The notes beneath the pieces were generated by a model, which did no database searches, was not told the DNA's origin, and worked only from the letters and a program-made list of their open reading frames with translations. A stretch of 27,268 bases of DNA from a virus: IMG/VR virus record IMGVR_UViG_3300047678_000047, positions 1-27,268 of that record; one strand, given 5' to 3'. Of this stretch, positions 9,623-23,620 are shown piece by piece; position 1 is the stretch's first letter, and every line of letters begins with the position of its first letter. The position numbers and the translations under genes were made by a program.

Positions 9623-10897
9623 TCAGCCGGTGCGGCGAGCCGTCCACTCGGGACGAATCACCGCAGCGCCCCAAAGCACGTCGAAGCGGCTGATACGGCG
9701 GTTGTTCACGATGTCGAAGCCGCGCATGAAACGCAGAGAGATACCGCCCTGATCGGCCAGGGTGGAACAGGCCGCGTAGTCCATGCCGTTCGGCACTTCC
9801 ATTTCGGGCGAAACGAACGTCACCGCTTCTTTGTGCCAGAGCAGGTTCTGCGCGTAGGTCGTAGCAGCGGTGCCGGTCTTGACGGTGATGGCCGCAGACG
9901 CAGCAGGCCGAGCCGTCACGTTCTGGTACGCACCACCCGCGATGATGGCCGGGCTGATGATGGCAGTCAGGTTGCCAGAGCCATCAGACGAAGCGTTGGC
10001 CGTCACGACGAAGGTCGCCAAACTGCCCGTGTCCTGCTTCGTCTCCGGGTTCACCGAGTTCACGCCAGTGATCGTGATGACATCGCCCTTGTTCAGGCGT
10101 TGCGCAACCGCTGCGGTCCAACCGTTCGTCACCAGCGAGGTCGTTGCCGCATACGGGTTGTCAGTCAGGCCCGCATTGATGAGGCCCTGGTTGCCAGCGT
10201 TCACGGTCGGGGTGCCACCCAACGCGCCGACCGTGTGCGTCGGAACGTTCTGCGACATCATCAAGTCGATGCCGAGCTGCGTCTGCACGATGCCCTTGCG
10301 ATACTGGTCTTCAAGCGTGCCGCGCGGGTTGAACAGGGTCGCCAGGCCCGCCACGACTGCCGCATTCGCGTTGGGGTTCAGCGCCGCGAAGCGTTGACCA
10401 TCACGCGGGCATGCGCCGTTGTCCATCGGGATTTGGGCGTTCACCAGGTCAGTGACGCTCGACGGGCCGGTGCCAGGCGTGCCGACGAAGTTGTACGTCG
10501 CGTTCTTGATGAGCAGACCGAGTTGGAAGTCCAGTTCGGCCGAGATGCGCAACGCTGCCGGCTTCAGGAAGCGGTCACGAAACGCCTTGTCGACGCCGCC
10601 GTCATTGCGAACGGCCACCGCCAGATCGAAGTCCTGCACCGCAAAGTCGATGCCGAGTTCCGGGTTGATGGTGATCGGCACCGTGCTGTCGGTGATGTCC
10701 TGCACGTTCGCAGTCGCGCCGTTGCGGATCGTGAACTGCACCGGACGGCGGGCACTGATGGTCGCGCCGGGGGCGTATTTGCCCATCCAGTTCTTCTCGT
10801 AGTCGGTGCCAACGTTGCCCAGGAAGGCACTGGTGTTGTGGATGATGCGAACGATCTCGTTCGTGATGACCGTTGCGGTCTGGAAGGCGTTAGCCAC
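9623..10897 (-). CDS. Major capsid (coat) protein, P22 gp5-like
   Basis: The product has 424 residues from GTG 10897, with AAAGG seven bases upstream. The N-terminus (ATVITNEIVRIIHNTSAFLG) and the HK97-type E-loop and spine regions fit the P22 coat family. Residues about 268-320 (GDVITITGVNSVNPETKQDT, then TFVVTANASSDG) correspond to the inserted I-domain of P22 coat, which has the same GVNSV..xTK..TG pattern. Length is close to P22 gp5 (430). It assembles with the upstream scaffold protein into a procapsid. The start is preceded by a small GTGA-loop hairpin whose near-copy precedes the tailspike. No prohead-cleavage propeptide is evident. Confidence 0.92.
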   Translation of the reverse strand: MANAFQTATVITNEIVRIIHNTSAFLGNVGTDYEKNWMGKYAPGATISARRPVQFTIRNGATANVQDITDSTVPITINPELGIDFAVQDFDLAVAVRNDGGVDKAFRDRFLKPAALRISAELDFQLGLLIKNATYNFVGTPGTGPSSVTDLVNAQIPMDNGACPRDGQRFAALNPNANAAVVAGLATLFNPRGTLEDQYRKGIVQTQLGIDLMMSQNVPTHTVGALGGTPTVNAGNQGLINAGLTDNPYAATTSLVTNGWTAAVAQRLNKGDVITITGVNSVNPETKQDTGSLATFVVTANASSDGSGNLTAIISPAIIAGGAYQNVTARPAASAAITVKTGTAATTYAQNLLWHKEAVTFVSPEMEVPNGMDYAACSTLADQGGISLRFMRGFDIVNNRRISRFDVLWGAAVIRPEWTARRTG

Positions 10898-10945: not shown

Positions 10946-11812
10946 CTAGTCGAGGCCTTTGGCCTCCTGCTCGTTGCGCCACTTGACCCAGGCTTTCGTA
11001 TCCCGGAAGTCAGGTGCGCCGCTTTTGACTCCGCCACCGCGCACCTTCTCAATGGGCGCAGGGGCGTTGCTTCGTTCTGGACGTTCCTTGGCCTTGGCCG
11101 CCAGCTTGTCTTCCAGTCGCGCTATTGCACGAATGGCCTTGACTGCTGGCATCTTGCCGATGGCTTCGGCTTCGTCCGAGTGTTCGGGGTCAGCAAGGTA
11201 TTCGATCAGCGCTTTCGGGTCTTCGGCCTCGAAGATCGCATCCACTGCGGGCTTTGGCTTGCCGGAAGGCTCAGCCAGGCCATCGAATGCGTCATCAAGG
11301 TCCGATGCGAGCGCATCGAACTTCTCTTTCCCCAGGTCTTTCGCCAGCTTGTCGACAATGCCACGTCGGTGCTCTCTCTCGTCCTGCTGCTGCTTGATCG
11401 TCGGGGCTCGTTTGGCGGCCTCTTGGTCGATCAGCTTGTGCAACTCGGCTCGGGTGAGCTGTATGGGCTCGTCATCGCTTGGCGATTCGGTTCGCGTTAT
11501 ACCGCCGCTCTGAGGCTGCTGCAACGGCACATTTGCCGTCTGCGGTTGCGCCTGCCCCTGGTAGATACGCTTGGTCAGGTTGTCGACCCGCCGACGGAGG
11601 CGGCGAATCTCTCGCTCTTCCGGCGTGAGTTCCTTCTTCGCAGGTTCGCCTTCCGGCTTCTCTTCGCCTGCTGCGGCTTCGGAGCCTTCTTCTGCGCCCT
11701 CGGCGTTCGTTTCTTCGCCCTCGGCAAGCTGACCAGCGGCTTCGTTCTGCTGCTGTTCGCCCGCCTCTGCCGACTGTTCTTCGGCGGTTGGCAATGCGGT
11801 TTCGGTGCTCAA
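10946..11812 (-). CDS. Scaffolding protein
   Basis: The product has 288 residues. I chose TTG 11812 as start because AGGAG lies seven bases upstream; the in-frame GTG 11857 and ATG 11842 have no ribosome site. The N-terminal third is highly acidic and Glu/Gln/Ala-rich (TAEEQSAEAGEQQQNEAAGQ), the middle is coiled-coil-like (KKELTPEEREIRRLRRRVDN), and the C-terminus is basic (WVKWRNEQEAKG). A long, charged, helical, low-complexity protein immediately before the coat gene is the classical profile of a phage scaffold. Its length is close to P22 gp8 (303), whose basic C-terminal helix-turn-helix binds coat. No protease domain is present. Confidence 0.82.
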   Translation of the reverse strand: MSTETALPTAEEQSAEAGEQQQNEAAGQLAEGEETNAEGAEEGSEAAAGEEKPEGEPAKKELTPEEREIRRLRRRVDNLTKRIYQGQAQPQTANVPLQQPQSGGITRTESPSDDEPIQLTRAELHKLIDQEAAKRAPTIKQQQDEREHRRGIVDKLAKDLGKEKFDALASDLDDAFDGLAEPSGKPKPAVDAIFEAEDPKALIEYLADPEHSDEAEAIGKMPAVKAIRAIARLEDKLAAKAKERPERSNAPAPIEKVRGGGVKSGAPDFRDTKAWVKWRNEQEAKGLD

Positions 11813-11947
11813 TCTACTCTCCTGGGGTGCCCTCACGGACATGCCCTGACTACCCACTATTTAGGCCGGTGGGTCTGCGGCATCTGCTCAGCCTTGCGCT
11901 TCGTTGGGGGTCATCGCCGCATCCAGCGCGTTGGGGAGGCGGTGTCA

Positions 11948-12449
11948 TTAGCTTGTCAGCAGCGGGTGGCCTGGGTCAATGATGGTGCAGAAGCCGCTGC
12001 TGACCGTAGCGGTGTTCACACGCATCTGCCACTGCGCTTGGCGGTTGCGCAACATGCCGAAGTTAAGCGCGGCGGTCGTGATGCGCTTTAGGCGCGTGCC
12101 TGGAGTGGTGCGGACCTTGGTGTTCGACCATTGCTCCGCAGTCCGGCTGAAGAAGCAATTCCCCGGCCGCGTGGATGACGATTTCGGTGTTGCTCGTGCC
12201 GAGCAGGCCGGCAGCATCAAGCGCGGTCTGGATGGCGGTGCTGTTGGCGTCCGCAGAGCTGGCCGCATTGGCTGTCGGGGTGACGACGATCACCGCTGCT
12301 GCTTGTGCGGAGGTGAGAATCTGCGCCACGTCTGTGATCGCGGCAGCAGGGAACGCGAGGCTGTTGTCCTTCTTGACGACAGCTTCATACGCGCCTGTCG
12401 CGCTGTTGATCTGCGTCCGCAACGCATCAAGGGGTCGGAATTCGCTCAT
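11948..12449 (-). CDS. Head-module protein of unknown function interrupted by a +1 frameshift
   Basis: The gene begins at ATG 12449 (ATGA overlap with portal) and reads well for 96 codons, to VIHAAG at 12162. After that the frame becomes His/Arg-rich noise and stops at 12063. The frame reached by skipping one G of a GGGG run (plus-strand CCCC, 12161-12164) continues with NCFFSRTAEQWSNTK and strongly GC3-biased codons to TAA 11948-11950. The joined product would have 166 residues. The N-terminal half is Ala/Thr-rich with alternating helix and strand (AAAVIVVTPTANAASSADAN). The gene lies between portal and scaffold. Explanations are a sequencing homopolymer error, a recent mutation or, less likely, programmed +1 shifting. 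I do not recognise the family. Confidence 0.7.
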
Positions 12450-14638
12450 GGTGCGCTTTCGATGGAAGCGCCTTCAGGTTCTGGCGCGGGTTCTGGTGAT
12501 TGGGGTTCTGGGCTGGCTGACATTGCGGCCGGGAAGGGCTTCATTTCGTAGCTCTGCGGCTCGCCCTCTTGCTCGGGCTGCGGCATTGGTGCTGGCGCGG
12601 AAGCGGCGCTGATATCGGTGCGCTGCATGTCTTGCATCAGTCGGGCAACGATGGCCTCAATCTGCTGCTGGTTCGCCCCCGTGACCTTCAGACGCGCCGT
12701 CTCCGCGTTGTAGCGATCAAGGGCAAGCTCGGTGATGCGGGCCTCTTGCTCTTCTTCCTTGCTGGCCAACTGCTGCTGCGCCTGGTCGGCTTCGGCTTGC
12801 GCGTCCTGCGCGTGCTTGATGGCCTCTTGCAGGGCTTGCTTGACCTGTTCTAGTTGGGCCGCGAGTTGCGCCGTTGTCGGCTGCTTGTCGCTCTCGGGGC
12901 TCAGGATGGCCCTGACCTCTGGCGGCGCGGTCGCGGTGAGCACCTGGGCTAGTCTGTCGGCGTGCGGTACATCCAGCGACTGCGCCCACAGCGGCCCGAT
13001 GATCGGCAGCATCTGCGGATTCGCGCGGATCATCTCCTGATAGGCCGCAGCGGCTTGCTCGCGCTGCGTGCTGTAGGTCGCGCCAACAACAACCCGAACA
13101 TCGTATGAACCCTGGTTCGGGTTGATCGAAATGCCATCGTCCGTCTCCATGAACGGCTTGGGCTGTTTCGGGTCGACTCGCACCGTGCTCGGGGTGTTGT
13201 CGATACCGAGGATGCGCAGTTGGCGCCGGGTGTTGATGAGGCGCGGCACCATGTCCAAGCACAGCTTGCCGACCTGAGTCAGCGATGCAGCCAAGTGCGA
13301 CGGGAAATGGCTTGTGCTGGCCTCGCCCTGCTGCTTGCGGCTGTCGATCGCCACTCCGCTTGTCTCGTTGCTAGGGGCACCGAGGTTGGCCTGGTACATC
13401 CCTATCGCAGCCTGGATGTCGGCCTTCGCCTGCTCTGCGTTCTGGATGTGGTTCTGCAGGTTCGTCGCCACATTCATGCGCTGCGGAACCGGAAGGGCAA
13501 TCGTGGGATCGTCGGGGTCCGTTGAGTGATACGGCAGATAGGCGCGCGAGTCCACCGATGCGCGGTCCCACAGGCGTTCCAGACCTCGGATCGAACGCGC
13601 TTCAACCAACCAGGGGGACTTCGGCGCCTGACTCATCAGCACGCGCATCTCGCTCATGTGGTAGTTGTAGGCGCGCTGCGGCTCTCGGGCCCTCCGAGGT
13701 ATGCCGCAGTAGGTGAGGCGGCCATCGGCGAAGCTGACATAGCCGTAGACCGGAACGATTCCGATGCCGGTAGCAGGGTACGTGGTGGATGCGGTCAGCA
13801 CCTCGGAGCCGGACATGCGGCACCATTTGACGATGCGCTTCTTGTCCGAATAGTTGTACAGGAATGCAGGGTTCTGGCCGTTTTTCTTCGCGGTCCAATA
13901 GTCATCCTCGCTCAGGCTCACCTGATCGCCATTCGGCATGCCGCAGACGATGACGTTCTGCTTGTCCTCGCTGACGAGCCATTCATCGGCAACTAGGATC
14001 GTGTCGCGTTCGTCGCTGACGCGCTTCATTTCCTCATCGCCGAAGCTGATCTTCGCGGCCTTCTTGCCGAATGTGCGCTCGAACCTGGCGGGGCTGAAGG
14101 ATGTCAGGTGATAGCCGAAGTCGGCATCAGAACCGCCGAGATTGGTAGACCACGGATCAAGCAGAACCTTGAGCGGGTCGCCCTCGCTGTCGATGCGAGG
14201 CTCTTGGTAGTTCAGTGCTGCGTCTGTGACCTGGGGACGCACCAGCAGGTAGCCAATGCCTACGCGGGCCGCAGACGTGAGCACGCGGGCGTAGTGCTCA
14301 TTCGCCCGGCTGGCGTATTCGATCTGCCGGAAAAAGCCGTCAAGGCTTTCTGCGACCTTTTGGTGCCCGTCGACGGCGGGGATCGCGTGCAGGCTCGGCG
14401 GTCGCTGCTCGACTTGGCCGGCGACGTTCGAGACGTACTGCCCGAGCTGATCCATGACCAGACAGGGCCTGGCGCCACCCGGATCAGTCTCGCGCTGGCG
14501 CTTTTCCTCTTCGTCCCACTGCTGAGGATTGCACGGATCAGAGAACGCCAGATCCTCTCGAATCTGGTTTCTCTGATCGCGCATCGCGTCTATCGACTCT
14601 CGATAGCGTGACTGCGCCTCCGCTAGTGGGTCGGCCAT
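12446..14638 (-). CDS. Portal protein, P22 gp1-like
   Basis: The product has 730 residues from ATG 14638 (MADPLAEAQSRYRES); an ATG five codons upstream (14653) is possible. Length and layout match the P22 portal (725 residues). The N-terminal DPLAEAQSRYRESIDAMRDQ and NPQQWDEE segments, the wing/clip region in the middle, and a Gln/Glu/Ala-rich helical C-terminus (LEQVKQALQEAIKHAQDAQA through about residue 660) fit the long barrel helices of this family. The extreme C-terminus is Pro/Glu-rich (EPQSPEPAPEPEG). The portal forms the dodecameric DNA channel at one capsid vertex and binds terminase and the gp4-like adaptor. A strong hairpin lies directly before the start. Confidence 0.9.
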   Translation of the reverse strand: MADPLAEAQSRYRESIDAMRDQRNQIREDLAFSDPCNPQQWDEEEKRQRETDPGGARPCLVMDQLGQYVSNVAGQVEQRPPSLHAIPAVDGHQKVAESLDGFFRQIEYASRANEHYARVLTSAARVGIGYLLVRPQVTDAALNYQEPRIDSEGDPLKVLLDPWSTNLGGSDADFGYHLTSFSPARFERTFGKKAAKISFGDEEMKRVSDERDTILVADEWLVSEDKQNVIVCGMPNGDQVSLSEDDYWTAKKNGQNPAFLYNYSDKKRIVKWCRMSGSEVLTASTTYPATGIGIVPVYGYVSFADGRLTYCGIPRRAREPQRAYNYHMSEMRVLMSQAPKSPWLVEARSIRGLERLWDRASVDSRAYLPYHSTDPDDPTIALPVPQRMNVATNLQNHIQNAEQAKADIQAAIGMYQANLGAPSNETSGVAIDSRKQQGEASTSHFPSHLAASLTQVGKLCLDMVPRLINTRRQLRILGIDNTPSTVRVDPKQPKPFMETDDGISINPNQGSYDVRVVVGATYSTQREQAAAAYQEMIRANPQMLPIIGPLWAQSLDVPHADRLAQVLTATAPPEVRAILSPESDKQPTTAQLAAQLEQVKQALQEAIKHAQDAQAEADQAQQQLASKEEEQEARITELALDRYNAETARLKVTGANQQQIEAIVARLMQDMQRTDISAASAPAPMPQPEQEGEPQSYEMKPFPAAMSASPEPQSPEPAPEPEGASIESAP

Positions 14639-14640
14639 AT

Positions 14641-14662
14641 GGCGCCGAACCATACCGGCGCC
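14641..14662 (-). promoter_or_regulatory. Perfect hairpin around the portal start codons
   Basis: GGCGCCG (14641-14647) and CGGCGCC (14656-14662) form a seven-pair GC-only stem with an eight-base loop. On the minus strand the first candidate ATG (14653) lies in the loop and the second (14638) lies two bases after the stem. No Shine-Dalgarno sequence is visible for either start. The structure could limit portal translation, which is useful because only twelve copies per virion are needed. Confidence 0.45.
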
Positions 14663-14674
14663 AGGAGCTAATGG

Positions 14675-15124
14675 CTACGGCACTTTTGCCGTCTCAAGCG
14701 TCAACACATCAACGCCGTTGCCGCAGCCCGAATCGAACATGGCTGTAAGCTCTACAGCTTCGCGCGCCGACTTCCCAAGGTGCATGGCCATGAGCGCGAA
14801 GTCTCGGCCGCATCCAATCGCAAAGCGGCGATCTTCAATGACGCTCGGATATGGGCTGCGCTCATAGGTATGAAGAGTACCGTCCGCGCGCACGACAATG
14901 ATGGCGGACCAGTCTTCCTTGTCCCGCTGCGCGGCAGGGAACGCGTCCACCTTTTCGCCATCGCGGAACCAGGCGAGCATCTGGGCATTCAGCGCCGACT
15001 CTCCAGACAATCCGATCAGCGCATCGCCGACACGAAAAATCTTGCTAGTCGTCGTGATGAGCGTGCCGCGGCTTTGCCGCTTGTCCGCCGCCAGTGTCTT
15101 GCCGTCCCATGCGATGCAGGTCAT
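14675..15124 (-). CDS. HslV/proteasome-like Ntn hydrolase (family T1 peptidase type)
   Basis: The product has 149 residues from ATG 15124, with ATGA overlap to the upstream gene. It begins Met-Thr (MTCIAWDGKTLAADKRQ), so removal of Met would expose the catalytic Thr of the T1 peptidase fold. Asp14 in LAADKR and Lys28 in TTTSKIFRVGD match the Asp17 and Lys33 positions of HslV/proteasome beta subunits, allowing for a shorter first hairpin. GLSGESALNAQ, SAIIVVRADGTLH and AIGCGRDFALMAMHLGKSAR follow the HslV order (core loop, second sheet, then GSG-x-A and the helix starting SAREA). The gene is between terminase and portal. It might process a head protein or a host target. No ATPase partner (HslU-like) is seen in the window. 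The activity is inferred. Confidence 0.8.
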   Translation of the reverse strand: MTCIAWDGKTLAADKRQSRGTLITTTSKIFRVGDALIGLSGESALNAQMLAWFRDGEKVDAFPAAQRDKEDWSAIIVVRADGTLHTYERSPYPSVIEDRRFAIGCGRDFALMAMHLGKSAREAVELTAMFDSGCGNGVDVLTLETAKVP

Positions 15125-15297
15125 CGGAACCACTCCGTAAATCCGCACCGGACGCAGCGCTGCGCGACTGGGTTGTCGCCTTTGCTCAGGAGCTGGAACT
15201 CGTGGATTGAACAAGGGCCCGGCTTCGGGCGCTTGTGGGTCTTTGCGTCTGCGGCGCGCGCCTTTTTTAGGAGGCGTTTTAGGACTTCGGCCTTCAC
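15121..15297 (-). CDS. Small zinc-ribbon-like protein next to terminase
   Basis: Starting at GTG 15297, shortly after the TerL stop, the product has 58 residues. Basic N-terminal helix (VKAEVLKRLLKKARAADAK) is followed by CSIH...CVRCGFTEWF, a Cys-x2-His plus Cys-x2-Cys arrangement that could hold one zinc ion. In-frame ATGs at 15378 and 15390 would lengthen it by overlapping the TerL gene, and their extra residues are not convincing. AAGGAG lies 20 bases before the GTG, too far to decide. The end overlaps the Ntn hydrolase start (ATGA). A role in packaging or DNA binding is possible but unproven. Confidence 0.6.
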   Translation of the reverse strand: MKAEVLKRLLKKARAADAKTHKRPKPGPCSIHEFQLLSKGDNPVAQRCVRCGFTEWFR

Positions 15298-15307
15298 GGT
15301 GCGATGC

Positions 15308-16732
15308 TCAAAGTCTCGCTCCTTGTGCTGCGCTCTTGGTGTAGTCGTAGGGTTCAGGTTTGCGCCCGATGTCGCCATAGGCGACAGCATAGCGCCGCAT
15401 CATGTAGGCATATCGCATGCCGTCAAGAACGTCGTCGGCAGCCTTCACAATGTGTCCGCTGTCGTCGCGGTGATATTGCAGGAACTCATCGAAGAAGTCT
15501 CGCAAGCCTGCAAACACCTTGAACTTGCCCTTCATCATCAGGTCTCGAATCTCAAATATTCCAGCCTCGACACCGTTCGAGCCATCGGGCCAGGTGGCGT
15601 GATTCGGCAGCAGTTTGAACCCGGCTTCGACATAGTAGGACTTCTGCTGTTTTGCGCTGCCCTTCTCGGTCTGCAGTCCGTCAGCGGGCCAAGCGGTTGG
15701 CACTCCTTGCGCCCATGACTTCGTTGCCGCCCAAGCATCACTTGGCATCACGCGAGACTTCTTCCAGGCCTTGACGAGATAGAAGCACTCGGCATCGCGG
15801 TCCTCCACGAGCTGGACCTGAGCCTGCGGATGATCAAAGCCAAAATCCATGCCGTCGATCACCCGGAAGTGCGGCGGGATTGCGAATGGAGCGCACGTCA
15901 CATCCTCTTCGGCGATGTCGTAGATTCGACCGTGGCCGAGCATAGGAACGCCCTTCGTGCGCATCTCGCGTTGATGCGCGGGGAAGCTGGCCAGCAGGTC
16001 CGCCTTGACCTGCTCGCTCAGGTGCGGCGCATCGTCCCACCCCTTTTGCATACAGAACTGCGCTCGGCTCGGGTTGTCCATGAACTGGATCACCAGTTCA
16101 GTGCGCCCGTTCTCCGGGGTGAAGGTCAGGATGCCGCGCCCGCCTCGGCCGCGATTGCCTGATGCTGTACGCACCAGAACCTGCGGAAATATCGCAGCGT
16201 CTCTCGGCTCTTCGTCGATGTGGAACCAGTCCACGGCATCGCCCATCAGCGCGTGCTGACCCTGGCTGTAGCTCCAAAACTGGATTCGAGCCGTGCCGCC
16301 GGATGAGTGGCGCACCAGCAGCGTCCGCACCGCGTTTGGCGTGCCTGTCATTGACTCGTAGCCGATGATGCGATCAGCGGGAATCAGACCGCCCGCAAAG
16401 GTCTCGCCGTTCTTGCGCCCCACAAGTGGCGTCTGTAGGAGGTCGCGGGTCTTCTCGCCTGAGTAGCCAAGGCACCATATCAGCGGCGCATGGTCGAAGC
16501 GGTGCCCAGGCCAGTCCTCTGGATATTCGCCCAGCGCGTGGATTGCGTCGACGTAGGTGCCAAGGTAGGTCTTGCCGATCCGGTTGGCAGCTATCAGGCA
16601 GCACTGCGCACAGGCAGAGGTCGCAGCGATGAACTCGACTTGCCAGCCGTACAGGCCGGCGAAGATCGTGCGATAGCGGTTGGCCTCTAGCCTGGCAACT
16701 TGCTCTTCAAGCGCCAGAACAAGCTCTTCCAT
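15308..16732 (-). CDS. terL: Terminase large subunit (packaging ATPase and nuclease)
   Basis: The product has 474 residues from ATG 16732, two bases after the TerS stop; TTG 16750, with an AGGGG nearby, would add six residues. In the longer numbering, Walker A is AANRIGKT at 54-61, Walker B is DWFHIDEE at 174-181 with catalytic Glu, and the coupling motif lies near LTFTPENG (208-215). The C-terminal RNase H-like nuclease shows GMDFGFDHP at 300-308 (first Asp), ADGLQTEKG around 356-364 and ADDVLDGMRYA at 438-448 (last Asp). All metal ligands expected for the terminase nuclease are present. It drives DNA into the procapsid through the portal and cuts concatemers. The packaging mode (headful or cos) cannot be read from the sequence. 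Confidence 0.95.
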   Translation of the reverse strand: MEELVLALEEQVARLEANRYRTIFAGLYGWQVEFIAATSACAQCCLIAANRIGKTYLGTYVDAIHALGEYPEDWPGHRFDHAPLIWCLGYSGEKTRDLLQTPLVGRKNGETFAGGLIPADRIIGYESMTGTPNAVRTLLVRHSSGGTARIQFWSYSQGQHALMGDAVDWFHIDEEPRDAAIFPQVLVRTASGNRGRGGRGILTFTPENGRTELVIQFMDNPSRAQFCMQKGWDDAPHLSEQVKADLLASFPAHQREMRTKGVPMLGHGRIYDIAEEDVTCAPFAIPPHFRVIDGMDFGFDHPQAQVQLVEDRDAECFYLVKAWKKSRVMPSDAWAATKSWAQGVPTAWPADGLQTEKGSAKQQKSYYVEAGFKLLPNHATWPDGSNGVEAGIFEIRDLMMKGKFKVFAGLRDFFDEFLQYHRDDSGHIVKAADDVLDGMRYAYMMRRYAVAYGDIGRKPEPYDYTKSAAQGARL

Positions 16733-16733
16733 C

Positions 16734-17360
16734 TCAGACCGGGTTGCCAAGGCGCCCCTGAAGTTCTCGAATCCGCGCCGAAAGCTGTTCGTCAGTGATG
16801 CGCGCCAGCGCTTCGCCCTTCTGAGTGTTGTCGACCTCGTATCCGCCCAAGTGCTTCATGAGCATGTCAAGGTAGCCCTTGCGGTCGCCAATCTTGATCT
16901 TCTTGGTGAAGCCGATGGCCTTGCGCTCTTCTCCGCTCCCGCTGAATTCCTCCGTCACCTCGAAGCCGGCCAGCGCTGCGGCCGTATCGTCGTCCAACTT
17001 GGTCACGGACAGCAAACTACCGTCCTCGCCGAAGAACTTGCGCGGGTCGTGGAAGGCGCCGCGCGCAATCTCGCGCAGCGTGCGCTCTAGCGTGATGCAC
17101 GTAGCCTGCTGCACTTTGGCGATGACTTCGGCGCGATGGCTGTCAACCTCGGCTCGAATGTTCACACGACTTAACAGCCTAGATGCCTGCGCCGCCGCCG
17201 TTTTCTCGCTGTAGCCTGCCGCGATGGCTGCTCTACGCCCGTTGCGGTCGATCTTGTACTCGGCGATGAAGACGTTAACATCTGGCTTCTTTGGGGCGCC
17301 TTTCTTGGCCGATTTGTTGCGCGACTTCACGCTGCCTACTTTTGCGCGGACGGTTGGCAT
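16734..17360 (-). CDS. terS: Terminase small subunit
   Basis: The product has 208 residues from ATG 17360, with a strong AGGAGG eight bases upstream. A basic N-terminus (KSRNKSAKKGAPKK) leads into the Terminase_2-type helix-turn-helix (FIAEYKIDRNGRRAAIAAGY, then SEKTAAAQASRLLSR), which recognises packaging sites. The middle and C-terminus hold an ERTLREIARGAFHDPRKFF segment and the characteristic KIGDRKGYLDMLMKHLGGYE region. Immediately followed by TerL. The protein probably oligomerises into a ring that starts packaging. Upstream lies a GIY-YIG nuclease, an unusual companion. Confidence 0.92.
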   Translation of the reverse strand: MPTVRAKVGSVKSRNKSAKKGAPKKPDVNVFIAEYKIDRNGRRAAIAAGYSEKTAAAQASRLLSRVNIRAEVDSHRAEVIAKVQQATCITLERTLREIARGAFHDPRKFFGEDGSLLSVTKLDDDTAAALAGFEVTEEFSGSGEERKAIGFTKKIKIGDRKGYLDMLMKHLGGYEVDNTQKGEALARITDEQLSARIRELQGRLGNPV

Positions 17361-19099: not shown

Positions 19100-19195
19100 T
19101 CACTCGCTGTAGCCCTGCAGATCGGCGCACGCGGCCACCATAGCGACCCACGTCGCCGGCAGCTTTGCGCGATGGCGGTGCTTGCGACTTTTCAT
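19100..19195 (-). CDS. Very small basic protein downstream of the tRNA cluster
   Basis: The frame gives 31 residues from ATG 19195 (MKSRKHRHRAKLPATWVAMV..., then ACADLQGYSE), ending one base before the zinc-finger gene. Codons are GC3-biased like neighbours. A basic head is followed by a short helix. No strong ribosome site is seen. Support comes from spacing and codon pattern. Confidence 0.5.
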   Translation of the reverse strand: MKSRKHRHRAKLPATWVAMVAACADLQGYSE

Positions 19196-19229
19196 AGTTC
19201 GCGTATCAACGAGTTAGGCGTGTTGTGGC

Positions 19230-19319
19230 TGGCGGAGCGTGAAGGGATCGAACCTTCGCGGCGGTTGCCCACCGGCTGCGGCTTAGCAAGCCGACCCATT
19301 GCCACTCTGGCAACGCTCC
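19230..19319 (-). tRNA. tRNA-Ser(GCT)
   Basis: Acceptor GGAGCGT pairs ACGCTCC; the anticodon loop is TTGCTAA (anticodon GCT, reads AGC/AGT); the T loop is TTCGATC; a long variable arm (CCGGTGGGCAACCGCC region) is present as in normal tRNA-Ser. The discriminator is G73 and CCA is encoded. Last gene of the six-tRNA cluster. Confidence 0.95.
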
Positions 19320-19325
19320 AAGCGA

Positions 19326-19417
19326 TGGCGGACGGTGTAGGGATCGAACCCACGCGGCCAGGTTCGCTGACCATCTCGGTTTTCAAGACCGGTGCATTAC
19401 CGCTCTGCCAACCGTCC
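19326..19417 (-). tRNA. tRNA-Ser(TGA)
   Basis: Acceptor GGACGGT pairs ACCGTCC; the anticodon loop is CTTGAAA (anticodon TGA, reads TCA and other TCN); the long variable arm (GGTCAGCGAACCTGGCC region) and TTCGATC loop are present. G73 and encoded CCA. TCA is expected to be uncommon in a GC-rich host. Confidence 0.95.
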
Positions 19418-19425
19418 GTTGCTTC

Positions 19426-19502
19426 TGGTGCCCCACCCCGGACTCGAACCGGGAGAATCTGGTTTCTAAGACCAGCGCGTATGCCAATTCCGCCAGCGGG
19501 GC
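19426..19502 (-). tRNA. tRNA-Leu(TAG) with short variable loop
   Basis: Acceptor GCCCCGC pairs GTGGGGC (one G-T); the anticodon stem CTGGT/ACCAG carries loop CTTAGAA (anticodon TAG, reads CTA and CTN). The D arm TGGCGGAATTGGCATACGCG is Leu-like and A73 is the Leu discriminator. Only five bases (ATTCT) lie between anticodon stem and T stem, so the long class II variable arm of bacterial tRNA-Leu is absent. Total is 77 bases including CCA. Confidence 0.93.
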
Positions 19503-19510
19503 AATGATCT

Positions 19511-19587
19511 TGGTAGGCCACCCGGGATTCGAACCCGGAACATCCGCCTTTTGAGGGCGTCGCGTCTGCCGGTTGCGCCAGCGGCCC
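19511..19587 (-). tRNA. tRNA-Leu(CAA) with short variable loop
   Basis: Acceptor GGGCCGC pairs GTGGCCT with two G-T pairs; the anticodon loop is CTCAAAA (anticodon CAA, reads TTG). The D arm TGGCGCAACCGGCAGACGCG resembles E. coli tRNA-Leu. The variable region is only ATGTT, as in class I tRNAs. A73 and CCA are encoded; T loop is TTCGAAT. Total is 77 bases. Confidence 0.92.
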
Positions 19588-19596
19588 GATGAATGA

Positions 19597-19683
19597 TGGT
19601 GGAGCGACCTGGATTCGAACCAGGACGGAACTAGCCGACCTCGGGGTTACAGCCCGGTGCCCTACCGAATAGGCGTCCGCTCC
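19597..19683 (-). tRNA. tRNA-Tyr(GTA)
   Basis: Acceptor GGAGCGG pairs TCGCTCC; the anticodon loop is CTGTAAC (anticodon GTA). The variable arm is long (GGTCGGCTAGTTCCGT), as normal for bacterial tRNA-Tyr. The top pair of the anticodon stem is a C-A mismatch. A73 and encoded CCA; T loop TTCGAAT. Confidence 0.93.
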
Positions 19684-19729
19684 GTGATGGAGCGTCAGTA
19701 ACTGAGTCGGGATCGACTGAGTAGGAAGG
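19684..19729 (-). other. Spacer hairpin between tRNA-Tyr and tRNA-Pro
   Basis: The longest spacer within the cluster contains CTGAGTCG-GGAT-CGACTGAG (plus strand), which pairs in seven of eight positions. It could guide precursor processing. No further tRNA is seen in it. Confidence 0.35.
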
Positions 19730-19808
19730 TGGTCTGGGTGGCAGGATTCGAACCTGCGGCCTCCGCGTTCCAAGCGCGGCCGTCTAACCGGGCTGACAAT
19801 ACACCCAG
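19730..19808 (-). tRNA. tRNA-Pro(TGG)
   Basis: Acceptor CTGGGTG pairs CACCCAG; the anticodon stem CCGCG/CGCGG carries loop CTTGGAA (anticodon TGG, reads CCA and other CCN). T stem GCAGG/CCTGC with loop TTCGAAT. A73 and CCA are encoded. First gene of the cluster, about 35 bases downstream of the predicted transcription start. Confidence 0.95.
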
Positions 19809-20006
19809 AGAGATTGAGGGTCGCGGGAGCGAGGCGTTCATGGTGCGCGTATTGTAGCGCGGCACCAGCAGCGCGCAAGGCCCGCACGCTACCATTTGCA
19901 CGCTTCGGAACCACACGCCCAACCCCTCGCTCAAGCGGAGAGCCGCCGGCAGCTTGGGTGGTGTCTTCATGCTTGGTCATGGGGCGTCTCCTGCTTAGCT
20001 CGAACG
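19809..20006 (-). other. Gap between tRNA cluster and HNH-like gene, with two doubtful ORFs
   Basis: Besides the tRNA promoter, AGGAGA stands seven bases before ATG 19980 (MTKHEDTTQAAGGSP...). That frame stays open through all six tRNA genes to 19192, so its 3' part cannot be a normal gene. A second frame from ATG 19970 (MKTPPKLPAALRLSEGLGVW) has better GC3 bias but no ribosome site and also runs into the tRNAs, to 19695. Either a short gene has lost its stop, perhaps when the tRNAs were acquired, or the signals are fortuitous. Confidence 0.35.
19851..19878 (-). promoter_or_regulatory. Sigma70-like promoter of the tRNA operon
   Basis: On the minus strand TTGCGC (19873-19878) and TACAAT (19851-19856; five of six to consensus) are 16 bases apart. 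The region after the -10 box is GC-rich (ACGCGCACC), as in stringently controlled stable-RNA promoters. The first tRNA begins about 43 bases downstream of the -10 box. Confidence 0.65.
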
Positions 20007-20546
20007 TTATGGCGCTCCCGCTGGGCATAGCGCCTCCGCCAGTTCGAACACGCTGCGCGGAGTCTTCGCCGACCGCCTCCACGTCTTGTTCGCCACAATA
20101 TCATTGACGGCGTGCCTGCTGACGCCGTAGCGCGCAGCAATGTCTAGCGCCCGCTCGCCAGCACTGAAGGCAACCCGAATCTCGTTTGCCTTCGCCTGGT
20201 CCAGCTTTGCCTTGCCTTGGGACACTGCCGCCCTTTGGCGCCGCAGGTACTCAGCAGGAGTGTCGCGGTTACCGTTGCTGTAGGACTTTGAGGTCACCTG
20301 TGACCTGGTGCGCTGGATCAGGCATTCAGGAGATAGGCACAGCTTTTGACCGCAGCGGGCCGCCACTACGCTTCCCGGCCTGATGGTCATCCCCATGTGC
20401 TTCTGGTACACATAGCGTCGCATGTTCCGCGGCTTGCCATCGACTCGCGCCATGGGATAGCCTGCGTCGTTCGTGCCGAGCCGCCAGAGCATGCAATTGC
20501 CCTCGCAGTCGCAGACTGAGCGCAGCATCTGCTCGTTCATGATCAT
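20007..20546 (-). CDS. HNH-like protein with HTH domain and degenerate active site
   Basis: The product has 179 residues from ATG 20546 (ATGA overlap with NinB); ATG 20540 is also possible. Residues about 14-80 follow the layout of phage HNH_3-type nucleases: CMLWRLGTNDAGYPMARVDG, then RRYVYQKHMG and VVAARCGQKLCLSPECL. In active relatives the last block reads like RHKCDNPLCVNPEHL, whereas here the catalytic-region His is Ala and the final His is Cys. Residues about 115-158 (LDQAKANEIRVAFSAGERAL, then DIAARYGVSRHAVNDIV) form a helix-turn-helix. It may be a nuclease that became a DNA-binding regulator, or may use a variant metal site. Located between NinB and the tRNA promoter. Confidence 0.68.
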   Translation of the reverse strand: MIMNEQMLRSVCDCEGNCMLWRLGTNDAGYPMARVDGKPRNMRRYVYQKHMGMTIRPGSVVAARCGQKLCLSPECLIQRTRSQVTSKSYSNGNRDTPAEYLRRQRAAVSQGKAKLDQAKANEIRVAFSAGERALDIAARYGVSRHAVNDIVANKTWRRSAKTPRSVFELAEALCPAGAP

Positions 20547-21266: not shown

Positions 21267-22089
21267 CCATCATCAGCGAGGCGACCCTGAACAGCCCTTC
21301 GCTCTGGTGCAGATCGTTCGCATCCTGCCCCTTGCCAGCCATGCAATACCGCAGCCCGGTTGCGATCGCAGCTTGCTCTCCTGCTGCGCTCTCGTCGTTG
21401 TCAGCAAACACCATCGCATCGCCTTTGAGCAGCGATGCGACGTGGATCAGATTTCCAGCGCTGAAACAGATGAGCACCGAGTCGCGGAGCTTCAGCAAGC
21501 GAATGGCGGCCTCGACGCTCAGTCCTGTAGCAAACCCCTCGACAAGCCACGTTCGTGCAGCCATCGCCGAACCAAGCCGGAATACAGCCCCTTTGGCGCG
21601 CATGCCGGGAAGCATCTTCTTCTCATAGGTCATCTCGTCTGGAAGCCACCTGATGACCTGGGCGCCGACCAGAAAGTTGTCGGCCAGGCGACGCATCGGC
21701 ACCATCAAAGCACCGTCAGGCAGGACCAAGCCCGGCGTCTGGCCGAACCCCTTGAGCTGCAGATAGTTGTGCTCGGCCTGAACCGCAGTACCGAGCAGCG
21801 CCTGTGCGTTCCGGGCTGCTCGCGCCCATCCGGCTCGTAGCCGTGCATCGTGCGCGGCTACTTGGGCGTTGATGCGCTCCATGTTGACCTGGGGTGCATC
21901 GGCCTCTGGCCTCCAAACGGCAACGTCGACCATGGTGGCGTGGTTCTGTACGAATCCCACTTCCCCAAGCCACTTGTATGCGCCATTTTTCGACCTCGGG
22001 TGATCCTCTGTCGGCACGCGCACCCATCGGCCCGCGTCAAGCGAATCGACAATCAAGCCGTGCAACCGGCAGAAGGCGTCAAACTGCAA
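21235..22089 (-). CDS. Toprim-domain DNA primase
   Basis: The product has 284 residues from TTG 22089, which has GAGGAG seven bases upstream inside the helicase end and overlaps that gene by 11 bases. The N-terminal part (GRWVRVPTEDHPRSKNGAYK, then WLGEVGFVQNHATMVDVAVW) matches phage primases that begin with a substrate-binding module lacking a classical zinc finger. The Toprim core shows WLVEGFATGLSVEAA (Glu184) and GDAMVFADNDESAAG (Asp230, Asp232), the acidic triad for primer synthesis. GQDANDLHQSEG near the end is the typical final Toprim motif. It works with the adjacent SF2 helicase in phage DNA replication. Confidence 0.87.
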   Translation of the reverse strand: MQFDAFCRLHGLIVDSLDAGRWVRVPTEDHPRSKNGAYKWLGEVGFVQNHATMVDVAVWRPEADAPQVNMERINAQVAAHDARLRAGWARAARNAQALLGTAVQAEHNYLQLKGFGQTPGLVLPDGALMVPMRRLADNFLVGAQVIRWLPDEMTYEKKMLPGMRAKGAVFRLGSAMAARTWLVEGFATGLSVEAAIRLLKLRDSVLICFSAGNLIHVASLLKGDAMVFADNDESAAGEQAAIATGLRYCMAGKGQDANDLHQSEGLFRVASLMMDATQLREPVS

Positions 22090-23620
22090 CTGCCTGCTCC
22101 TCGCGCTGCTTCTTGAAAGCCTGCGCCTTGGCGATCTGGATTGACTTGATCTTGTTCAGCGTCGACTGCGTAATCTTGGTGTTCGGCGTCGTCTCGAATC
22201 GGAAAGCGTTGGGCCACTCCCCGATGATGTCCCGATAAAGATGCGCGGCTCGTCCCTTCGCGGTTTCCGGCTTGCCGTAGCTCCGGCAGTGCGTGACGAT
22301 CTGCTCATACAGATGACGGGAGTCGTCGGCCAGCTTCTTTTTGCCGATGACGATCTCGCGCATCTGCCCGGCCTGGGCCTCGACGAGCGCGGCCGACTGA
22401 ATCTCGAAACCACACGACATGCATCGCTTGGCAAAAGGCTTGAACCCGCACGATGGGCAGCCCTTCTTTGCCTTCTCTTCGTCTCGGCGAATCGTCTTGT
22501 CCAACTTCTCGCCTGAGTCCAACTCCTGCAGCCCATTGAAGAAGATGTCGGTGTAGTCCTCGGCGAAGCGAAGGATGTTCCCAGTGTGGTCCAAAAGTCG
22601 GCAGTCGACTTTTCCGGTGTCGGGTGATGCGCGAAGACCGCGCCCCCACATCTGGATCGCAGTCGAAAGGCTCTTGCGCAGCGGCCGGCAGTCAACGACA
22701 CAGCCAACGTCCGGCACGTCGAAGCCCTTTGCCAAAGCTTCCACGCTGATGAGCACCCGCAGCCGAGAGCCAGGCTTCCGGTACTCATCAAGTAGCGCCT
22801 TGCGCTCTGGCGCCGTCGTGTCCTTCGTGAACACCGCAGCCATGATTCCGGCTTCGTTGAACTGTCGGCAAAGCTCTTCGCAGTGCTTGATCGTCGAGCC
22901 GAATACGATGGTCTTGCGGTTGTCGCCGAACTTGACCCATTCCGTTACGACATCACCGACGATCCCAAGACCGCGCTCTTCGGCCGCCTTGTCGGTCCAC
23001 TCTCCGCCCGATGTCTCTGCCCCTTCCATATTCGTCGGAGTGCACGAAAACACCTTCATCGGCACCAGCACACCGGAGCGGGTCAGTTCGTCCATCGTCG
23101 CCGCATTGACGAGGTTCGTGAACAACTTTCCAAGGCCCGGACTGAACGGGGTCGCGGACAGGCCAACGACGGACGCTTGGCAATCGTTGATGTACTCAGT
23201 CCAGACCGATAGCTGCGTGTGCGCCTCGTCGATCACGATCACATCGGCCTCGGGCCATTTGCGCCGCTGGATCGTCTGCGCGCTGGCGATGATGAATCGC
23301 GCATCGGGGTCGTATCGCCAATGCTGTGCCTGCAGGATGCCGTGCGCGCTCAATCCGTAGCGGTCGGCCGTCTCACTGGTCTGGTTGATGAGGGTCGTCC
23401 GGTCGCAAACGAACACCGCGCGCCGACCCTTGAGCAAGGCTTCATGGCAGATCCGCAAACCGAGGTAGCTCTTGCCCGAGCCGGTCGGGGACATGAGCAT
23501 CTGGTTTTTGTGCCCCTGCCGTCTGCCCTCGCGTAAAGCCTCGTGCGCCGTCACCTGAAACGGTCGCGGATCAGGGAACGTCGCCGCGCCAAATGTCGGC
23601 TCTTCAAACAGTCCGCTCAT
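22079..23620 (-). CDS. SF2 DEAH-type helicase (ResIII family) with zinc finger
   Basis: The product has 513 residues from ATG 23620 (ATGA overlap with the ParB-like gene). Motif I is SPTGSGKS at 44-51, motif II VIVIDEAH at 127-134, motif III LSATP at 154-158, motif IV near KTIVFGSTIKHCEE at 236-249, motif V LISVEALAKGFDVP at 290-303 and motif VI QMWGRGLR at 323-330. A four-Cys zinc module, CPSC...CMSC, lies at 388-403, followed by a basic helical C-terminus. All catalytic residues are present. It probably unwinds or remodels DNA during replication start, as the paired primase suggests. Restriction-type functions are unlikely because no methylase or nuclease is attached. Confidence 0.93.
   Translation of the reverse strand: MSGLFEEPTFGAATFPDPRPFQVTAHEALREGRRQGHKNQMLMSPTGSGKSYLGLRICHEALLKGRRAVFVCDRTTLINQTSETADRYGLSAHGILQAQHWRYDPDARFIIASAQTIQRRKWPEADVIVIDEAHTQLSVWTEYINDCQASVVGLSATPFSPGLGKLFTNLVNAATMDELTRSGVLVPMKVFSCTPTNMEGAETSGGEWTDKAAEERGLGIVGDVVTEWVKFGDNRKTIVFGSTIKHCEELCRQFNEAGIMAAVFTKDTTAPERKALLDEYRKPGSRLRVLISVEALAKGFDVPDVGCVVDCRPLRKSLSTAIQMWGRGLRASPDTGKVDCRLLDHTGNILRFAEDYTDIFFNGLQELDSGEKLDKTIRRDEEKAKKGCPSCGFKPFAKRCMSCGFEIQSAALVEAQAGQMREIVIGKKKLADDSRHLYEQIVTHCRSYGKPETAKGRAAHLYRDIIGEWPNAFRFETTPNTKITQSTLNKIKSIQIAKAQAFKKQREEQAVAV

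Follow-up and report, generated by a model that had tools for sequence, protein, structure and literature searches.

Gene content and reading frames of the locus

The window, by which we mean the whole stretch of 27,268 nucleotides that was analysed (IMG/VR record IMGVR_UViG_3300047678_000047, positions 1 to 27,268), is, as judged from its sequence, a fragment of a P22-like phage. It encodes a P22-type portal and coat protein, a scaffolding protein, both terminase subunits and ejection proteins, and carries a small gene for a predicted proteasome-like protein between the large terminase subunit and the portal. The features of this region are the following:

9623-10897, minus strand: P22-type coat protein (PF11651, PHROG 283)
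10946-11857, minus strand: head scaffolding protein (PHROG 8865)
12446-14653, minus strand: P22-type portal, downstream neighbour of the PPH gene (PF16510, E 5.5e-122)
14675-15124, minus strand: PPH-family proteasome-like Ntn hydrolase, 149 aa (PHROG 1040, AlphaFold2, Foldseek, alignments)
15119-15121, minus strand: codon ACC of the PPH gene, Thr2, the predicted nucleophile
15122-15124, minus strand: ATG start codon of the PPH gene, with ACC (Thr) directly next and no propeptide
15121-15390, minus strand: overlapping 89-aa orphan ORF with a CxxH...CxxC motif, co-directional with the PPH gene
15308-16750, minus strand: terminase large subunit, upstream neighbour of the PPH gene (Terminase_6N/6C, PHROG)
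16734-17360, minus strand: terminase small subunit (family-profile match)

The first-pass annotation had described a compact open reading frame with a Met-Thr start between terminase and portal, and the frame at 14675-15124 agrees with this exactly. It begins with the ATG at 15124 on the minus strand, its second codon specifies Thr, the protein starts MTCIAWDG, and a GGAG motif precedes the ATG by about 9 nt. Near the cassette we found one promoter-like site (15426-15399, minus strand), which is weak, with 0.4 expected by chance; a search for terminators on the minus strand around the cassette returned none, and these results say little either way about a promoter of the cassette's own. Elsewhere in the window, a GIY-YIG nuclease-like protein (PF22945; 17379-17936, minus strand) is encoded directly upstream of the terminase small subunit, and an array of six tRNA genes (Ser, Ser, Leu, Leu, Tyr, Pro) occupies 19230-19808 on the minus strand, where the long ORF at 19192-20082 is a spurious reading.

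The 89-aa ORF starts inside the terminase gene and overlaps both the end of that gene and the first bases of the PPH gene, with which it shares the sequence ATGA. This overlap is weak evidence of coupling, because any ATG-ACN start contains TGA. The ORF is probably part of the same inserted segment as the PPH gene. It had been suggested as a partner of the hydrolase, and this suggestion found no support: no relative was detected in viral contigs or phage records, and the upstream neighbours of other PPH genes differ and are unrelated to it, which rules it out as a conserved partner. A different small Cys-rich protein is encoded directly upstream of PPH in loci L002 and L003.

The first-pass annotation was right that no HslU-like unfoldase lies nearby, since the window contains neither HslU nor another clear AAA+ unfoldase. 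AAA_2 gave no match in the window, and the sole AAA match was sub-threshold and fell on an SF2 helicase (22079-23620); this protein is RadD-like and was rejected as an unfoldase.

Predicted fold, active site and family assignment

An AlphaFold2 model of the protein, computed from 27 sequences, of which 26 were viral-contig homologues and one the window protein itself, reached a pLDDT of 92.4 and a pTM of 0.86. Foldseek comparison of this model with the PDB retrieved HslV (6kui, E 1.1e-9) and BPH (5ovs, E 5.7e-9) with a probability of 1.00, and proteasome beta subunits were also among the matches. Against predicted viral proteins, Foldseek returned similar phage proteins, some of them labelled proteasome subunit beta or Ntn hydrolase. 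A PDB profile search with the protein family likewise matched HslV, BPH and the proteasome, and the single-sequence search was weak, with BPH 5ovu as the best match (E 0.0086). The proposed structure prediction and comparison with HslV thus yielded a predicted fold that is not unlike Ntn hydrolases, and the claim of an Ntn-hydrolase/proteasome fold is borne out at the level of the model. PHROG 1040 ('peptidase HslV family') matched residues 1-147 with E 4.8e-34. The Pfam Proteasome model PF00227 scored 19.9 bits, below its cut-off of 22.4; a six-frame scan of the window with the same model gave no match, in agreement with the protein score, and the NCBIfam HslV model had no listed match.

The predicted secondary structure contains one long helix (43-54) after strand S6, followed by a strand at 74-78. 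No helix precedes residue 43 in the AlphaFold2 model and no second long helix precedes the next strand, so that helix H2 is absent. We used hhalign to align the family of 58 sequences with a BPH and with the HslV proteins of host genomes that carry PPH. The gap in these alignments falls right after H1, at the place of the missing H2 and pore loop, where the window protein is about 40 residues shorter than BPH. The missing H2 and the sub-cut-off PF00227 score rule out HslV proper.

These features match a family that already has a name. PPH was named by Fuchs, Alva and Lupas in 2021 (PMC8665760) and comprises proteins of about 140 residues from tailed phages and their hosts that lack helix H2 and have no assigned function (PMC8665760). 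That survey reported neither an AAA+ partner nor an informative gene context for PPH (PMC8665760). It has been described as the first genuinely viral branch of the proteasome family. In the openly accessible literature we found no report on the activity or structure of a PPH, and none from virion proteomics. Because H2 is missing from the model, the alignment has a gap there and PHROG 1040 matches, the predicted protein is best filed under PPH and not under HslV. The earlier description as HslV/proteasome-like therefore stands for the proteasome-type Ntn fold and fails for HslV itself. The window protein is an additional member of the known, published PPH family, with membership judged by PHROG 1040, taken as the PPH model, and by published features rather than by PPH reference sequences.

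The loss of H2 bears on the idea that the protein docks on HslU (ClpY) or a different AAA+ ATPase of the host and turns degradation towards host proteins. HslU sits on the face of HslV that carries H2 and the pore loop. PPH has neither element on this HslU-facing side (PMC8665760), and in BPH, the closest relative that has been studied, the residues that contact HslU are lost, and its operons and host genomes suggest no companion ATPase (PMC5777263). A host unfoldase would be available, as a full HslU scored above the family cut-off in six of the eight PPH-bearing bacterial genomes; the ten PPH-bearing viral contigs searched, fragments among them, yielded no HslU. Taken together, we regard docking on a host ATPase as very unlikely.

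Conservation of the active site was examined in an alignment of 58 diverse sequences over 149 columns, in which identity falls to about 30% or less. Only four columns are 100% invariant, namely D14, K28, G41 and G104. The hhalign alignments equate T2 with Thr1, D14 with Asp17, K28 with Lys33 and G41 with Gly47; three of the four invariant columns are thus residues predicted beforehand from the proteasome (Asp17, Lys33, Gly47). The chance of finding all three among four random columns is (4x3x2)/(149x148x147), or about 7e-6, and the resemblance to the proteasome and HslV exceeds chance. The predicted catalytic set consists of Thr2 (Thr1 of the mature protein), Asp14 and Lys28, with Gly41 at the oxyanion position. 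Relatives likewise begin Met-Thr or Met-Ser, with Thr at position 2 in 55 sequences and Ser in three; for BPH, too, Ser is known as an alternative to the Thr nucleophile (PMC5777263). The Asp and Lys positions of T1 peptidases, which had been recognised in the sequence, are kept in 58 of 58 relatives, and loss of Thr2 or Lys28, named in advance as an observation that would speak against the assignment, was seen in none, position 2 being Thr or Ser throughout. The invariance of the triad argues against a degenerate or inactive homologue and suggests that the enzyme is in use.

The two further blocks that had been pointed out are also present. 'GCG' is the GSG(G/R) loop, in which the equivalent of Ser129 is Cys (Cys105) in the window protein, and 'SAREA' is the beginning of helix H4. 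At the Ser129 position the family alignment has Ser in 43 sequences and Cys in six, including the window protein. A second cysteine, Cys134, lies near the Ser169 position; it is common in the subclade and replaced by Ser or Thr in distant members.

PPH could also be a Thr/Ser-dependent transpeptidase or ligase instead of a peptidase, since connectase is a proteasome-fold protein able to ligate (PMC8665760). The compact PPH protein, however, has no insertion at S3/S4, the site of the two-helix element of connectase (PMC8665760), and we give this reading next to no probability.

Genomic context and optional presence of PPH genes

Relatives of the window protein occur in 497 phage records, among them hundreds of Salmonella and Escherichia phages including Jerseyvirus. 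Some of the carriers infect convenient laboratory hosts. Bacterial genome contigs, often with phage genes nearby (prophages), hold further relatives, as do a small number of plasmids from rhizobia and Chromobacterium. The plasmid copies (NZ_CP090091.1, NZ_CP071610.1, NZ_KM659098.1, NZ_CP050089.1) are annotated 'peptidase S14' (ClpP family), apparently a misannotation. Two copies (L024:1916-2488 and L034:5001-5585) have C-terminal extensions of about 45-50 aa that recall the RPC family (PMC8665760). In Aeromonas phage 4L372XY the adjacent gp205 and gp206 (L171:1932-3328) are both annotated as peptidase HslV family and possibly form a two-subunit phage proteasome-like pair.

Close relatives recur beside virion genes. 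PPH adjoins the portal in L004, L007 and L043, a T7-type head-tail adaptor in L013, the adaptor Ad1 in eight loci (L010, L015, L021, L022, L044, L048, L049, L051), Hc1 in L001, Ad3 in L014 and a terminase subunit, small or large, in L023, L030 and L042; in Caulobacter phage C1 it directly follows the terminase large subunit. The tree groups the window with L001 and L004, whose contexts differ, at a weakly supported fork. Other PPH genes neighbour HNH nucleases (L006, L046, DSL-LC04, Jerseyvirus), lysis genes, primase, PNK/RNA ligase or DNA ligase. In four loci of differing context (L006, L046, L035, L039) the gene immediately before PPH encodes an HNH-type nuclease, called from two record annotations, one PHROG and, for L006, the sequence only. 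Within the window subclade the link to virion genes is real, though not universal, and the count of head and connector neighbours is a raw tally that includes several related lineages. Many of the distant PPH genes are found away from late modules, so that late expression is not general.

To this we can add two samples of loci. Among 80 viral loci whose terminase is 63-86% identical to that of the window, searched with the PPH family profile, six carry PPH, always upstream of the terminase large subunit. No PPH gene lies between the terminase large subunit and the portal in the 72 of these loci with at least 1.5 kb downstream; where examined, a portal-like gene usually follows the terminase directly. 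In the second sample, 80 Ad1 head-tail-adaptor loci (L173-L252), PPH is present in ten (L174, L181, L194, L196, L203, L204, L205, L206, L209, L232), each time directly after Ad1, and this junction looks like an insertion hotspot. Because the terminase-portal junctions of the related-terminase loci hold no PPH, the gene is, as far as sequence comparison goes, an insertion in the window lineage that is dispensable at this site. The PPH-free junctions rule out a fixed gene of the packaging module, and the fixed role in P22 packaging that the first-pass annotation implied is not supported. The optional, accessory status of PPH is new in the present analysis.

Judged by the location of the gene, an assembly role of the window-subclade PPH would be attractive. 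As a morphogenesis protease, PPH would trim or remove scaffold, ejection or connector proteins in separate-scaffold heads that have no classical prohead protease. Its place beside the portal, Ad1, Hc1 or Ad3 in unrelated phages fits such a role, as do the head modules read: a separate scaffold (PHROG 206/784, 8865 or 3927) is encoded in the window, L018, L021, L044, L015, L004, L017 and L043, several of them with the P22-type coat (PHROG 283), and none of the head modules read has a recognised prohead protease, with L003 as a possible exception. The head protein of L003, however, shows weak similarity to head-protease fusions, distant PPH genes are located elsewhere, and P22 recycles its scaffold intact. 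Moreover, about 87% of adaptor loci and more than 90% of related-terminase loci have no PPH near the module, so that it is not required. We therefore think a morphogenesis protease rather unlikely. The narrower version, in which the window-subclade PPH would be a facultative virion-assembly protease, an unfoldase-free ring that phages with a scaffold but no prohead protease express from their head operon and that is directed at scaffold, connector or ejection proteins, we hold to be unlikely; if true, no earlier member of the proteasome family would have had a part in virus assembly.

A patchy distribution and movement between unrelated phages are typical of accessory genes, and together with the occurrence of PPH in prophages and on a few plasmids they could point to an anti-defence or anti-host factor, one that destroys a defence or regulatory protein of the host and is retained for its benefit in some hosts only. 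A position that recurs in late modules does not go well with an anti-defence role early in infection, and we judge this explanation distinctly improbable.

Proposed working and comparison with known systems

In our view, the window PPH is probably a late-expressed, unfoldase-independent Thr peptidase encoded by an accessory gene. It would be translated together with the late virion operon, after which host methionine aminopeptidase would take off Met1 and expose Thr1. The subunits may form a ring or double ring by analogy with HslV and BPH, and the loss of H2 could alter or prevent canonical rings. Thr1 would be activated by Lys28 and Asp14, with the oxyanion hole at Gly41, and the enzyme would cut flexible or unfolded chains with no AAA+ unfoldase of its own, as suggested by BPH and HslV. 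BPH loses its Met, has no known unfoldase and is modified at Thr1 by epoxomicin, and it is inert on standard peptides and casein (PMC5777263). The leading substrate candidates would be a morphogenesis protein of the phage or a protein of the host that becomes vulnerable late in infection. The late operons of unrelated phages would have acquired PPH as an accessory gene that packaging and assembly do not require.

The part that may be new is the pattern of genomic context. That PPH recurs in unrelated phages beside genes for the portal, adaptor and terminase is a first genomic clue to its function, and with this clue the family can be tested in laboratory phages.

With other PPH proteins the window protein shares a length of about 140-150 aa, a Thr directly after Met, the Asp/Lys/Gly catalytic set, the lack of H2 and of a C-terminal H5, and carriage by tailed phages or prophages. 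It is 59% identical to its nearest relative found, in L001, and differs from distant members in having Cys105 and Cys134 instead of Ser; unlike other PPH genes, its gene lies between terminase and portal beside an orphan ORF. BPH (5ovs, 5ovt, 5ovu) resembles it in fold, in the Thr1/Asp17/Lys triad and in having no propeptide and no known unfoldase, whereas BPH is about 190 aa long, has H2 and a long acidic pore loop and is chromosomal. The connectase two-helix insertion between S3 and S4 is absent from the model of the window protein. HslV (ClpQ) shares the fold, the triad and the GSGG/GSGR loop, but has H2 and the partner HslU; the window protein lacks the HslU-facing surface formed by H1 and H2, as H2 is gone, and falls under the Pfam proteasome cut-off.
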